A stretch of DNA of 64,000 nucleotides from Butyricicoccus sp. Marseille-Q5471. GTDB lineage: Bacteria; Bacillota; Clostridia; Oscillospirales; Butyricicoccaceae. Made by a program: the position numbers and the translations under genes. The stretch spans positions 62,001-126,000 of the forward strand of contig NZ_CATNVC010000004.1 in the NCBI RefSeq assembly GCF_951230135.1, read 5' to 3'. The notes beneath the pieces are model-generated. The model searched no databases, was not told where the DNA came from, and worked only from the letters and a program-made list of their open reading frames with translations. Of this stretch, positions 16,925 through 20,691 are shown piece by piece (within the stretch, counting starts at the first letter, position 1; each line of letters begins with the position of its first letter).

Positions 16925-17496
16925 TTATTGATTCGAAAAACTGCCATTACAGCTGCTCCCCAACAGACGGGATACGCTATATACGTCGCTGCCATTTTGC
17001 AGTTGGCACTGTGCAAAATAGTGCCTGCATGTATGCGGTGAGCAACAGATATTCTTTCTCACTTTCGCAGTTTCTCCTGCCATCCTGACCACGCGCTCAA
17101 CAGCCACAACTGTTAACGGCTTGCCCGTGCAGGACAGAAAAAGAGGATCCGGTATTTGCTTGAACTCGAAGAAGCCTTGATGAAGTGTGTAATACCGCAG
17201 TAACACCTTAGCCATGTGCGGGCTTTTGGCCACGAAGCGTTCCTTGTTGCCTTTGCCCATGATGTGGATATTATCATTGAATACATCTGCATTTTTCAAG
17301 TCACATGGCTCACTGCATTTCCAAGATGAATTTTGATGTGCACAGCTTTTACATGCTCCACCTCTTCTATGCCGCTGACCTCCAGAAATTTAATCAGCAG
17401 CTCATTCCTGTTCCGATATGATTTGATCGTTTTTGGGGAATAGCTTCTCACCTCGCAGTCGATCAAAAATTCGTCCAGCGCCGCTTTCATTTGCAT
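16925..17496 (-). pseudogene. Tyrosine recombinase (integrase), internally deleted and frameshifted
   Basis: The first frame (17496 to about 17320) encodes the N-terminal core-binding start: ALDEFLIDCEVRSYSPKTIK and NELLIKFLEVSGIEEVEHVK. After a junction near 17315 another frame resumes with SEPCDLKNADVFNDNIHIMGKGNKER and continues to CSPHTCRHYFAQCQLQNGSDVY. That keeps the HxxR box, but roughly 100 residues with the first catalytic Arg are missing. The end (LLGSSCNGSFSNQ) lacks the active-site Tyr. The element that carried it can no longer be mobilised by this enzyme. Confidence 0.85.
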
Positions 17497-17693: not shown

Positions 17694-18437
17694 TTATCCC
17701 TCGTAATCGTCCTCATTCTCCCAGTTATGCCAAACGGCCTGCACGTCATCGTTGTCCTCGAGGTTGTCGAGAAGCTTGCGCATCTTGGCCATGTCGTCCG
17801 TGCTTTCGATGGTGATGTAGTTCTGCGGTACCATCTCAATCTCGGCCTCGGCAAAGGAATACCCCAGCGTTTCGAGCGCTTCACGCACGACAGAGAACTC
17901 CTCCGGTGCGGTGTAAATCTCAAAGGTGTCCTCGTCAGCCTGGAAATCCTCCGCGCCGGCTTCCAGCGCCTGCATCATAACGGTATCCTCGTCCAGATCG
18001 CCGCGCTCAATGAGAATGACGCCCTTCTTATCAAACTGCCACGATACGCAGCCCGAAGCGCCCAGACCCGCGCCGTACTTGTCAAACAGGTGGCGCACAT
18101 CGGCGACGGTACGGTTTTTGTTATCAGTCAGCGTTTCCACAACGACCGCAACACCGGCAACACCGTAGCCCTCGTAGTTGTTTGCCTCGAAATCAACGCT
18201 GCCCGCAGCGCCCGAGTACTTGTCAAGCGTGCGCTTGATGTTATCGTTGGGCATATTGTTGGCCTTGGCCTTGGCGACAACGTCGCGCAGACGAGAGTTG
18301 TTGTCCGGATTGGCCGAGCCGCCCTCTTTAATCGCAATCGCAAGCTCACGGCCGATTTTGGTGAAAATCTTGGCGCGCTTTGCATCGTTTGCACCCTTGC
18401 GCTTGGCGATATTGTGGAACTTAGAATGTCCCGACAT
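17694..18437 (-). CDS. yebC: YebC/PmpR family regulator-translation factor
   Basis: The 247-residue protein matches the YebC family along its whole length: N-terminal MSGHSKFHNIAKRKGAND, PNDNIKRTLDK (about 73-83), EGYGVAGVAVVVETLTDN, and the C-terminal VPQNYITI followed by an acidic tail. Family members act as DNA-binding regulators or as ribosome-associated factors that relieve stalling at proline-rich stretches. Which applies here cannot be told from sequence. The usual ruvC neighbour is absent. The ATG has AAGAAGGAAATTC upstream, and the gene appears monocistronic. Confidence 0.93.
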   Translation of the reverse strand: MSGHSKFHNIAKRKGANDAKRAKIFTKIGRELAIAIKEGGSANPDNNSRLRDVVAKAKANNMPNDNIKRTLDKYSGAAGSVDFEANNYEGYGVAGVAVVVETLTDNKNRTVADVRHLFDKYGAGLGASGCVSWQFDKKGVILIERGDLDEDTVMMQALEAGAEDFQADEDTFEIYTAPEEFSVVREALETLGYSFAEAEIEMVPQNYITIESTDDMAKMRKLLDNLEDNDDVQAVWHNWENEDDYEG

Positions 18438-18544: not shown

Positions 18545-18574
18545 GCATATTTTGCTGGAAGCGCGTCCATAATA
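18545..18574 (+). promoter_or_regulatory. Sigma-G (forespore) type promoter for the Q/N-rich micro-protein
   Basis: GCATA (18545-18549), an 18-base spacer and CATAATA (18568-18574) match the B. subtilis sigma-G consensus gHATR-N18-CATWMTA at every defined position. The predicted start is near 18581, 25 bases before the ATG of the gene at 18606. The assignment rests on motif match and spacing. Confidence 0.65.
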
Positions 18575-18605
18575 GTCTCGAAATCCAATAAAGAGGTGAA
18601 TTATT

Positions 18606-18722
18606 ATGGGTAAGCAGAACCAGAACCAGCAGCAGAACCAGCAGAATTCTCAGAGCCAGCAGAATTCTCAGAATCAGAATCAGCAGAACAGCCAGAACAA
18701 GAAGAAGGATCAGCAGTTTTAA
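18606..18722 (+). CDS. 38-residue Q/N/S-rich low-complexity protein, candidate spore protein
   Basis: The protein starts MGKQNQNQQQNQQNSQS and ends NKKKDQQF. It is almost entirely Gln, Asn and Ser with a Lys-rich tail, and contains QNSQ-type repeats. The ATG has a strong AGAGGTGA site nine bases ahead. A sigma-G-like promoter precedes it and a perfect 16-bp terminator follows, so this is a self-contained expressed unit. Gamma-type small acid-soluble spore proteins are also short and rich in Q/N, but their typical repeat sequence is not present, so I do not assign that family. The two QQNSQ-encoding stretches are near-identical DNA (CAGCAGAATTCTCAG), suggesting repeat expansion. Confidence 0.75.
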   Translation: MGKQNQNQQQNQQNSQSQQNSQNQNQQNSQNKKKDQQF

Positions 18723-18736
18723 CTGACTGTGCTGCT

Positions 18737-18778
18737 GAAGAGCCGTCGGAACGTCCGTTCCGACGGCTCTTCCCTTTT
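18737..18778 (+). terminator. Terminator after the Q/N-rich gene
   Basis: GAAGAGCCGTCGGAAC / GTTCCGACGGCTCTTC is a perfect 16-bp stem with a four-base loop, followed by CCTTTT. Confidence 0.88.
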
Positions 18779-18855
18779 GCACCGTAAACGACAGCGGTTG
18801 CACCGGGATACGGTATAATGCTATAATAACAGTAAAATCCAAAGGAGCGGCACAT

Positions 18856-20691
18856 ATGACAGCGCAGGATATTTTAAAACAGTATTTCGGCTATTCCGCA
18901 TTTCGTCCGGGGCAGGACGCGCTGGTTTCACACATTCTCGAGGGGCGCGATACCCTTGGCATCATGCCAACCGGCGCGGGAAAGTCAATCTGCTATCAGG
19001 TGCCCGCTCTGGCTTTTTCGGGACTGACGCTCGTCATTTCGCCGCTGATTTCGCTGATGAAGGATCAGGTCGGCGCGCTGCACGAGTCGGGCGTCGCCGC
19101 GGCATACTTAAACAGCGCGCTCTCCGCCCCTGAAATGCGCGAGGTAATCGCGAACGCACGGGAAGGTCGCTACAAGCTGCTTTACATCGCGCCCGAGCGG
19201 CTGACTACCCCCGACTTTCTCGATTTCGCATGCCAAACCGAGATTTCCATGGTTACAATCGACGAAGCGCACTGTATTTCACAGTGGGGACAGGATTTTC
19301 GACCGAGCTACCTGAAAATCCTTGATTTTCTCCGCCTGCTGCCGCACCGACCGCTGGTTTCGGCCTTCACAGCGACCGCAACCGCCGCCGTGCGGGACGA
19401 CGTCATCCGTGCCCTCGGGCTGCGCGAGCCCTTTGTGCTGACCACGGGTTTTGACCGTCCCAACCTCTATTTCTCGGTCGAGCAGCCCTCGTCCAAACCG
19501 CAGGCACTGCTGCGCCTGCTCGCTGTGCGGACGGGCAAAAGCGGTATCGTCTACTGCGCCACGCGCAAGACGGTCGAGGACGTGTGCGATATGCTGCGCA
19601 TCAAGGGACTCGGCGCGACACGCTATCACGCCGGTCTGCCCGCCGAAGAGCGGCAGCGCAATCAGGATGATTTCCTGTACGACCGCGCCCCTGTCATGGT
19701 GGCGACCAATGCCTTCGGCATGGGCATCGACAAATCAAATGTGTCGTTTGTCGTTCATTATAATATGCCGAAAAACATGGAAAGCTATTATCAGGAGGCC
19801 GGCCGCGCGGGGCGTGACGGCGAAGCCGCCGACTGTATCCTGCTGTACAGCCCGCAGGACGTGCGCACGGGACAGTTTCTGATTGAGCGCAGTCACGAAG
19901 CTGCCGACGAGCAGGTCGACCCCGAAACACGGCGGGCACTGATCGACCGCGATTTGGAGCGATTGCGGCAGATGACTTTCTATTCGACGACAACCGAGTG
20001 CCTGCGGCGGTTCATTCTGCAATATTTCGGCGAAAGTGCGGCGGTGTCCTGCGGGCACTGCGGCAACTGCGACACCACCTTCGAAGAGATTGACGCAACG
20101 GTTGACGCGCAGAAAATCCTGTCCTGTATCTACCGGCTCGACGAGCGACGGCTGCATTTCGGCAAGGCGATTGTGTCGAGCGTGCTGTGCGGCGGCAAGA
20201 CCGAAAAAATCGAGCAGTTCGGATTGGACACGCTCTCGACCTACGGCATCATGCAGGACGCGACCGCCGCGCGCGTGCGGCAGCTGATTGACGTGCTGCT
20301 CGAGCGCGGTTATCTGCTGAGCGACCCCGAACGGTTCAACGCGCTGTTCCTGACCGCATCCGGCAACGCACTGATGCGCGGGCGGGATACCTTCGTCATC
20401 AAGCTGCCGCGCGAGAAAAAAGCCGCCCCGGCCAAGGGCGGCAAGGGCGGCGCGGCAATTGCCGGAGACGAAGCGTTGTTCGACCGTCTGCGCACGGTGC
20501 GCGCACGGCTGGCAGAGCAAGCGCATGTGCCGCCCTATGTCATTTTCTCCAACGCCACACTCGCCGATATGGCAGCGCGGCAGCCGATTACTGAATTTGA
20601 GTTCCTCGAAGTACGCGGCGTGGGCGAAGCAAAGGCCAACCGCTACGGAGAAATTTTCCTCGAGGAAATCAAATCCTATCTGCGGAGCTGA
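18856..20691 (+). CDS. recQ: ATP-dependent DNA helicase RecQ
   Basis: The 611-residue protein is a full-length 3'-5' RecQ helicase for recombination and fork repair. Walker A is MPTGAGKSICYQ (about 38-49), Walker B is TIDEAHCISQWG (about 138-149), and the helicase C-terminal motif is NAFGMGIDKSNVSFVVHYNMPK. The zinc domain has C-RRF..QYFGE..AVSCGHCGNC (about 375-402). A winged helix follows, then a C-terminal HRDC domain (about 540-605). The aromatic-rich loop reads SQWGQDFRPSY, with Gln where E. coli has His. The ATG has AAAGGAG upstream. It converges on the MerR gene with a four-base gap. Confidence 0.95.
   Translation: MTAQDILKQYFGYSAFRPGQDALVSHILEGRDTLGIMPTGAGKSICYQVPALAFSGLTLVISPLISLMKDQVGALHESGVAAAYLNSALSAPEMREVIANAREGRYKLLYIAPERLTTPDFLDFACQTEISMVTIDEAHCISQWGQDFRPSYLKILDFLRLLPHRPLVSAFTATATAAVRDDVIRALGLREPFVLTTGFDRPNLYFSVEQPSSKPQALLRLLAVRTGKSGIVYCATRKTVEDVCDMLRIKGLGATRYHAGLPAEERQRNQDDFLYDRAPVMVATNAFGMGIDKSNVSFVVHYNMPKNMESYYQEAGRAGRDGEAADCILLYSPQDVRTGQFLIERSHEAADEQVDPETRRALIDRDLERLRQMTFYSTTTECLRRFILQYFGESAAVSCGHCGNCDTTFEEIDATVDAQKILSCIYRLDERRLHFGKAIVSSVLCGGKTEKIEQFGLDTLSTYGIMQDATAARVRQLIDVLLERGYLLSDPERFNALFLTASGNALMRGRDTFVIKLPREKKAAPAKGGKGGAAIAGDEALFDRLRTVRARLAEQAHVPPYVIFSNATLADMAARQPITEFEFLEVRGVGEAKANRYGEIFLEEIKSYLRS

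Follow-up and report, generated by a model that had tools for sequence, protein, structure and literature searches.

A small Q/N-rich gene behind a putative forespore promoter in Butyricicoccus, and a sigG gene that most genomes of the genus carry in two separate parts

The forespore sigma factor is the product of sigG, and the sigma-G consensus consists of a -35 element GHATR, a spacer of about 18 nucleotides (nt), and a -10 element CATnHTA. Among the proteins of the spore core, the gamma-type SASP (SspE) of Bacillus is a Q/N-rich reserve protein, and the minor SASPs SspN, SspO, and SspP are very small, polar, and basic and have promoters of the sigma-G type. The SigO-RsoA pair of Bacillus subtilis is an example of a two-part sigma factor. 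The attP and attB sites of serine recombinases are quasi-symmetric, and attL and attR are hybrids.

Known interruptions of sporulation genes are described as lying almost entirely in mother-cell genes, and the same account explains the reconstitution of such genes by the fact that the mother cell is a dead end, so that the gene is retained in its interrupted form in the spore (PMC6957869). In C. difficile, skin is reported to be excised from sigK by the serine recombinase CD1231 together with the directionality factor CD1234, and recombination between attB and attP is reported to invert DNA when the sites are so oriented (PMC5025042). The gin element in Bacillus cereus gerE is presented as a non-prophage element with serine recombinases, GerE itself acting in the mother cell (PMC5595907), and the yin element interrupts yabG (PMC10747680). 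Among the PMC matches listed, which comprise titles and the starts of abstracts (subscription papers and bioRxiv lie outside them), there was no report of a split sigG, a split SASP gene, or split forespore genes.

The window, a stretch of 64,000 nt from a Butyricicoccus genome, contains a small gene behind a putative promoter of the sigma-G class, and the same genome carries sigG in two pieces. This sigG belongs with the split sporulation genes. As in the class of skin and gin, two parts cover the family profile, a recombinase gene lies at the break, and a core is shared by sites that, once exchanged, resemble the attP/attB type; it lacks, however, the compact excisable element and the mother-cell host gene that are usual in the class. 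Like skin in sigK (SpoIVCA; CD1231), it is a sporulation sigma factor gene in two parts with a recombinase of the Resolvase/Recombinase/Zn-ribbon type and a short shared core. Unlike skin, it concerns the forespore factor sigma-G and not the mother-cell factor sigma-K, and the division is shared by 23 of the 25 genomes of the genus. Two assemblies that consist of no more than two contigs each give the distance between the halves: in G001 approximately 112 kb separate them, both are on one strand, and the 3' half lies upstream of the 5' half, and in G005 they are on opposite strands at a distance of approximately 756 kb. In neither are the halves the two ends of a compact excisable element; elsewhere the halves are on different contigs or a single half is present. 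The resemblance to gin (gerE) and yin (yabG) is that of a split sporulation gene, and gin shares in addition the non-prophage nature and the serine recombinases, but both gin and yin are excisable elements and GerE is a mother-cell actor. The sigG-linked recombinase aligned over nearly its full length with XisF (NF041201), the fdxN-element recombinase of cyanobacteria, at 130.7 bits, which is well under the curated cutoff of 375 bits; the best-scoring NCBIfam model was CcrB, at 150.6 bits over the N-terminal part only, with a cutoff of 900. A split forespore sigG with its own recombinase in 23 of 25 genomes breaks the dead-end-mother-cell rule, and it raises the question of whether the genome is reversibly rearranged in the spore line and whether sporulation is gated by that rearrangement.

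The small gene and its promoter

The original prediction was of a 38-residue, Q/N-rich protein encoded behind a sigma-G-like promoter, with a ribosome site before the gene and a perfect terminator after it. The promoter is present in the window exactly as claimed: GCATA at 18545..18549 and CATAATA at 18568..18574 (both + strand) are separated by exactly 18 nt, 31 nt lie between CATAATA and the ATG at 18606, and the sigma-G consensus is matched exactly. The ribosome binding site (AGAGGTGA, 18592..18599, + strand) and the open reading frame (ORF) of 38 codons (18606..18722, + strand; MGKQNQ...QNKKKDQQF) were both found as well, with the stop codon at 18720-18722; Gln and Asn together make up 68% of the source-genome protein. 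The terminator fared less well. A strong hairpin of 16 bp lies at 18737..18772 (+ strand), and the fold of 18719-18790 reaches -37.6 kcal/mol (z of -7.47; 0 of 200 shuffles as good), but the T tract is short (CCCTTTT at 18773-18779; tail, CCCTTTTG) and the hairpin is absent from the list produced by a terminator scan, so that it is best called a probable terminator rather than a perfect one. The neighbors of the small gene are yebC, which is divergent from it (17694..18437, - strand; Pfam TACO1/YebC), and a recQ helicase gene on its 3' side (18856..20691, + strand; Pfam RecQ domains). Beside yebC, one of two ORFs at 16925-17496 (- strand) matches the C-terminal part and the other the N-terminal part of tyrosine (phage-type) integrases, and together they are apparently a broken integrase.

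Both the small gene and yebC were found in all 25 genus genomes, and the small gene was read beside yebC in 24 of them. In G017 the contig stops 23 nt beyond the yebC start and the small-gene copy is on another contig; in G008 the yebC-side copy is cut by a contig end, and the copy on a second contig spans the whole profile. recQ is the downstream neighbor in four genomes (the source genome G000, G001, G013, and G014), and a recQ scan of the genome contigs gave 80 distant loci. The claimed promoter was borne out across the genus, with a GYATA -35 element in all 25 copies, followed by a -10 element after 18 nt (21 copies) or 17 nt (4 copies), and with all five scored -10 positions matched in 21 of the 25. 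CAAACTA (12/25) and CAGACTA (6/25) are the commonest forms of the -10 element. Mean identity was 56% over the first 12 spacer positions past the 10-nt -35 block and 88 to 100% at six of the seven -10 positions. The script used for these counts sought GNATATTT no more than 110 nt upstream and the best -10 element at a distance of 15 to 20 nt; it would have reported misses and reported none. GAGGTGA precedes the start in 25 of 25 copies, but the script needed GAGGTGA to locate the gene.

The uncut proteins of the genus, 32 to 54 residues long, have an MSKQN-like head in common and frequently a KKNDQQ tail as well; the reading frame stays open despite these changes in length (32 to 54 codons). 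Their content of Gln plus Asn runs from 32 to 78%, with Pro, Thr, and Cys in many copies; the extreme Q/N content is therefore partly a trait of the source species. The conservation of promoter, head, and tail within the genus indicates that the small gene is real and is selected for its composition and its ends over its exact sequence. A search of the 25 genus genomes with the single protein matched the window copy only, the protein being of low complexity. A profile from an alignment of 22 of the 25 genus copies (A1) had matches in 21 of the 87 family genomes, every one a member of the genus, and in 9 of 394 genomes of the order, none of them outside it. Since this profile misses four genomes that have the gene (G000, G002, G004, and G013), the negatives outside the genus are weak.

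The original prediction had proposed that the motif be sought before other spore genes. GNATA-N18-CATANTA has six matches in the 2.94-Mb genome, against three for a reversed-pattern control, so that little can be concluded from the motif alone and conservation in the genus is the decisive test. Four of the six matches lie 31 to 72 nt before a start codon (starts picked by eye), and the genes behind them are the small gene, a YetF/DUF421 gene, a gene with a Coat_F domain, and a ribosome-hibernation (S30AE) gene, the YetF and Coat_F genes being those that speak for the proposal. Open frames of more than 120 codons overlap three of these four sites too, and the other two matches, which have no start of this kind behind them, are inside long open frames. 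The YetF-domain gene (L014:795-1466, - strand) begins 34 nt behind its sigma-G-like site, and the gene for the ribosome hibernation factor (L015:1563-2087, + strand) begins 32 nt behind its own. YetF is described as a spore inner-membrane family (PMC12548441).

A forespore promoter of the sigma-G class before the small gene is well supported by these comparisons, and sigma-G is probably the factor that reads it. A distinction between sigma-F and sigma-G promoters is reported for C. difficile, in which the final A of the -10 element marks sigma-G (PMC3789822). This A is kept in 24 of 25 small-gene copies, which points to sigma-G. The alternative that sigma-F, or sigma-F together with sigma-G, uses the promoter early in the forespore and independently of the split sigG seems unlikely. 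In its favor, the two factors recognize nearly identical sequences, one promoter resembling both types is described (PMC3789822), and a G directly before the -10 element in 22 of 25 copies (TG in 15, CG in 6, and GG in 1) leaves room for sigma-F. What weighs against it, besides the conserved A, is the form that a sigma-F-type promoter takes in this genus. The 5' half of sigG has such a promoter, GTATATT...GGGGAAAAT, in 21 of 21 5' loci, and the CAnACTA or CATAATA-like -10 elements of the small gene are unlike its GGGGAAAAT. It is far less credible that the ORF is expressed during vegetative growth from a different start, or that the transcript acts as an RNA, with the forespore motif being incidental. 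There is a weak sigma-70-like match at 18578-18607 (9 of 12 positions), but all 25 copies retain the forespore motif with its spacing, the MSKQN-like head is conserved, and the frame remains open as its length changes between 32 and 54 codons.

The original prediction implied that the organism sporulates, and the genome agrees with it. The best NCBIfam matches of its sigma factors are SigF, SigE, and SigH (below the curated cutoffs on the fragments given), and it has one alpha/beta-type SASP gene (PF00269; C8:94147-94323), intact and separate from the small gene; together, these make sporulation likely. For the Q/N-rich protein of the source genome, neither Pfam nor NCBIfam gave a match at an E value of ≤10, although scores for low-complexity sequence are weak, and the alpha/beta-type SASP profile PF00269 was among those that did not match. 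Because no family matched, the functional reading draws on composition and promoter, and by analogy the product is likely a minor spore-core protein, a counterpart of the minor or gamma-type SASPs. It shares with SspE a small size, Q/N richness, a basic character, low complexity, and a forespore promoter, so that a role as reserve or filler is plausible; unlike SspE, it is shorter, its source copy has no Pfam or NCBIfam match, its 25 copies have no GPR-like motif by a simple pattern, and it was seen in one genus only within the 87 family and 394 order genomes searched. With SspN, SspO, and SspP it has in common a very small, polar, and basic product and a sigma-G-type promoter, but this is a likeness of features, and the small protein has no family match.

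We propose that sigma-G RNA polymerase would transcribe the gene late in the forespore from GCATA-N18-CATAATA and that the mRNA would be translated from the strong ribosome site. The product would be a minor protein of the spore core that is specific to the genus, very small, basic, rich in Gln and Asn, and probably disordered, and it might serve in core filling, in the shielding of DNA or water, or as an amino-acid reserve. A simple pattern for a GPR-like cleavage motif found none in the 25 copies, which counts against a store of the gamma-SASP style that is degraded by GPR; the function of amino-acid store is only plausible. The small gene is, in any case, a genus-wide candidate for a spore protein without a family match and with a well-conserved forespore-type promoter.

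The two parts of sigG

The original prediction was to fall if spoIIIG were absent from the genome. sigG proved to be neither missing nor intact but present as two distant pieces. A profile search of the source genome found no full-length sigG, only partial matches to profile positions 2-96 and 92-254, which are the 5' half at C9:50737-51021 (L003:1492-1791) and the 3' half at C8:84141-84629 (L001:1504-1992), both far from contig ends. The break is near codon 96, the 5' half ending in ...FSTYAVPMNIL-stop and the 3' half reading ...PMIIGEIRRYL.... Across the genus, sigG is split in 23 of 25 genomes and joined in G002 and G017. Where it is split, both halves were found in 20 genomes, the 5' half only in G022, and the 3' half only in G013 and G014 (completeness, 76 to 83%). 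The 5' and 3' parts together cover the family profile, and in 5 of the 20 two-part genomes the 3' part ends early.

The sigG family cutoff was reached by none of the 25 genus genomes and by none of the 87 family genomes. Among the matches listed for the 62 other family genomes, a near full-length sigG appears in 53 (starting at profile position 23 in G083 and reaching 238 in G046), a weaker sigma-factor match only in four (G040, G047, G066, and G077), and no sigG match at an E value of ≤1e-35 in four others. G054, which belongs to another genus, also has a split sigG, and a 48%-identical recombinase lies beside its 3' half. In G047, from another genus of the family and rated 100% complete, no sigG-like match among those listed is stronger than that of another sigma factor. 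Genome surveys may score species with a split sigG as lacking sigG and hence as asporogenous.

The surroundings of the two halves are regular. The order pta (divergent), recombinase, and sigG 3' half was seen in seven split genomes (G000, G001, G003, G004, G005, G006, and G015). All 21 5' loci have an amidohydrolase gene behind the 5' half, and in 15 of them the stretch ahead of the 5' half includes a sigE match of 78% or more. In G017 and G002, pta adjoins the joined sigG, and behind sigE in G002 come another ORF and the amidohydrolase gene, with sigG absent from the interval. As the gene of the forespore sigma factor, and with a sigma-F-type promoter on its 5' half, sigG is not the mother-cell host gene that other interruptions would lead one to expect. 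Median pN/pS values were 0.130 and 0.078 for the two halves (209 pairs each, not independent of one another, after removal of pairs that differed in length or had a pS of ≤0.05), and on this measure both halves are under purifying selection.

Some copies of sigG have a second break near codon 240, after ...ISQ/...LSP, at which the final 15 or so codons are replaced by another tail. It was seen in 5 of 22 3' halves (G004, G012, G018, G021, and G024) and in the joined sigG of G002 (L139-L143 and L123). A known RNA element was considered for this break, and an Rfam search of the six loci gave no match at the gathering threshold. In G019, the sigG 3' half is cut by a contig end.

Recombinase, break sites, and the probable joining of sigG

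A large serine recombinase gene (encoding approximately 458 amino acids [aa] in G000) lies directly upstream of the sigG 3' half in 22 of 22 cases. In G000, Pfam assigns Resolvase, Recombinase, and Zn-ribbon domains to the protein, and the CCGATG of the 3' half is 25 nt past the stop codon of its gene. At an E value of ≤1e-60, the recombinase was not found in the joined genomes G002 and G017 or in G022, from which the sigG 3' half is missing as well; having no recombinase, G002 and G017 may never have been split. CCGATG is common to the breaks, occurring in 22 of 22 3' loci and in 20 of 21 5' loci, with CCAATG in the 5' locus of G019. Symmetry at the breaks was scored as mirrored positions of 22 around CC, both for the recombinase and amidohydrolase arms (P) and for the two sigG arms (B). 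When the arms were exchanged about a fixed axis in 20 genomes, symmetry was 13.25/22 for P and 9.80/22 for B, compared with 6.65 and 3.95 for the unexchanged sites, and the other axes of P gave a mean of 5.82 (standard deviation, 1.83). The axis was fixed after the sites had been inspected, and a free-axis test of P gave 8.45 versus 8.17 for shuffles, with no separation; arms of the same species matched no better than species-mixed arms (13.25 versus 13.26). Since attP and attB are quasi-symmetric and symmetry is gained by the exchange, the split genomes appear to be in the attL/attR state, and the joined sigG appears to be attB. A dedicated recombinase probably rejoins the halves. An ORF of approximately 62 aa has a stop codon that overlaps the recombinase start (L257, L259, L261, L262, and L227); it was in frame in five of nine genomes, in another frame in two, and not found in two. 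GGGCAnAATA lies upstream of it in five of the seven genomes displayed, and its product, which has no Pfam match, is a candidate directionality factor.

In the scheme that we favor, expression of the small gene would be gated one step earlier by a DNA rearrangement of sigG. The dedicated serine recombinase would exchange the attL-like and attR-like break sites to give one intact, attB-like sigG, probably with the assistance of a directionality factor such as the 62-aa candidate. We consider this account as a whole, a spore-core gene read by sigma-G and gated by the joining of the sigG halves, to be probable. Its predicted consequences are large: joining would leave sigG on a circle of approximately 112 kb in G001 and would invert approximately 756 kb in G005, and either event would be drastic for cells from which the progeny descend, which was counted against the gating. 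Also counted against it was that no searched genome showed split and joined sigG together. A wider version, to which we give a little less than an even chance, is that making a spore requires the spore line to rearrange its own DNA, sigG and in some species a SASP gene being joined in the forespore and the joining being undone after germination, with the small gene as one target. If so, the germ line would cycle between two chromosome architectures.

Other explanations of the divided sigG would dispense with joining in the forespore. The split might be a reversible phase-variation switch, with a joined, sporulation-competent minority among the vegetative cells. Such a switch would suit the fact that sigma-G acts in the forespore, whose DNA reaches the progeny, so that any one-way change is heritable, and it would suit the opposite-strand halves of G005, where joining amounts to an inversion of the kind for which reversible, megabase-scale cases are reported in Eggerthella lenta (PMC13174815). 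We nevertheless regard it as doubtful. The sigG 5' half retains a forespore-type promoter, the same-strand sites of G001 would yield two circles and no inversion, and both states were seen together in none of the searched genomes. Decay of sigG in an asporogenous genus, with the small-gene promoter as a relic, is a much poorer prospect. It could be argued from the family cutoff, which no genus genome reaches (but neither does any of the 87 family genomes), and from the 5 of 22 3' halves that lose their last 15 or so codons at the second break. The low median pN/pS of both halves stands opposed to decay, as do the promoter on every 5' half, the recombinase at every 3' half, the small-gene promoter kept throughout the genus, and SASP genes in 10 of the 11 genomes searched. 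Least probable of all is a two-part sigma factor in which the halves are made as two polypeptides and the DNA is never rejoined. The strong purifying selection on both halves would be expected of it, and so would halves that, in G001 and G005, are not the ends of one compact element. The break, however, interrupts region 2, of whose 71 profile positions the 5' half takes up 1-55, and does not fall between domains. Inspection by eye showed no ribosome site ahead of the first ATG in the 3' half, and the tails of the 5' halves after PM vary in sequence and length. The recombinase adjoining all 22 of the 3' halves and the arms that become symmetric on exchange also speak against a two-polypeptide arrangement. 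Recombinase-mediated joining therefore remains the reading that we prefer for sigG.

A SASP gene in two parts

A search for PF00269 in 11 genus genomes matched 10, and in 4 of the 11 (G010, G018, G021, and G023) the SASP gene is in two parts. The parts are approximately 4 to 23 kb apart, on the same contig and strand, and the split is at the AAAEVGV codons (L288/L287 in G023, L289/L284 in G010, L290/L285 in G021, and L291/L286 in G018). In all four split genomes, the ssp 3' part is immediately preceded by an open frame of approximately 565 aa, which is a serine recombinase by Pfam in G023, the one tested. Many ordinary-looking genes (named by eye) are present between the parts in three of the four genomes. 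Exchange of the arms at these sites gave best symmetries of 14 to 17 of 24 (P) versus means near 6 over all axes. The -35 elements of the SASP genes were tried as a source for a consensus; they gave no clean alignment to GYATA-N18, and none was drawn from them. In G024, the SASP gene (L283:1500-1750) leaves the family near profile position 51, possibly at another break site.
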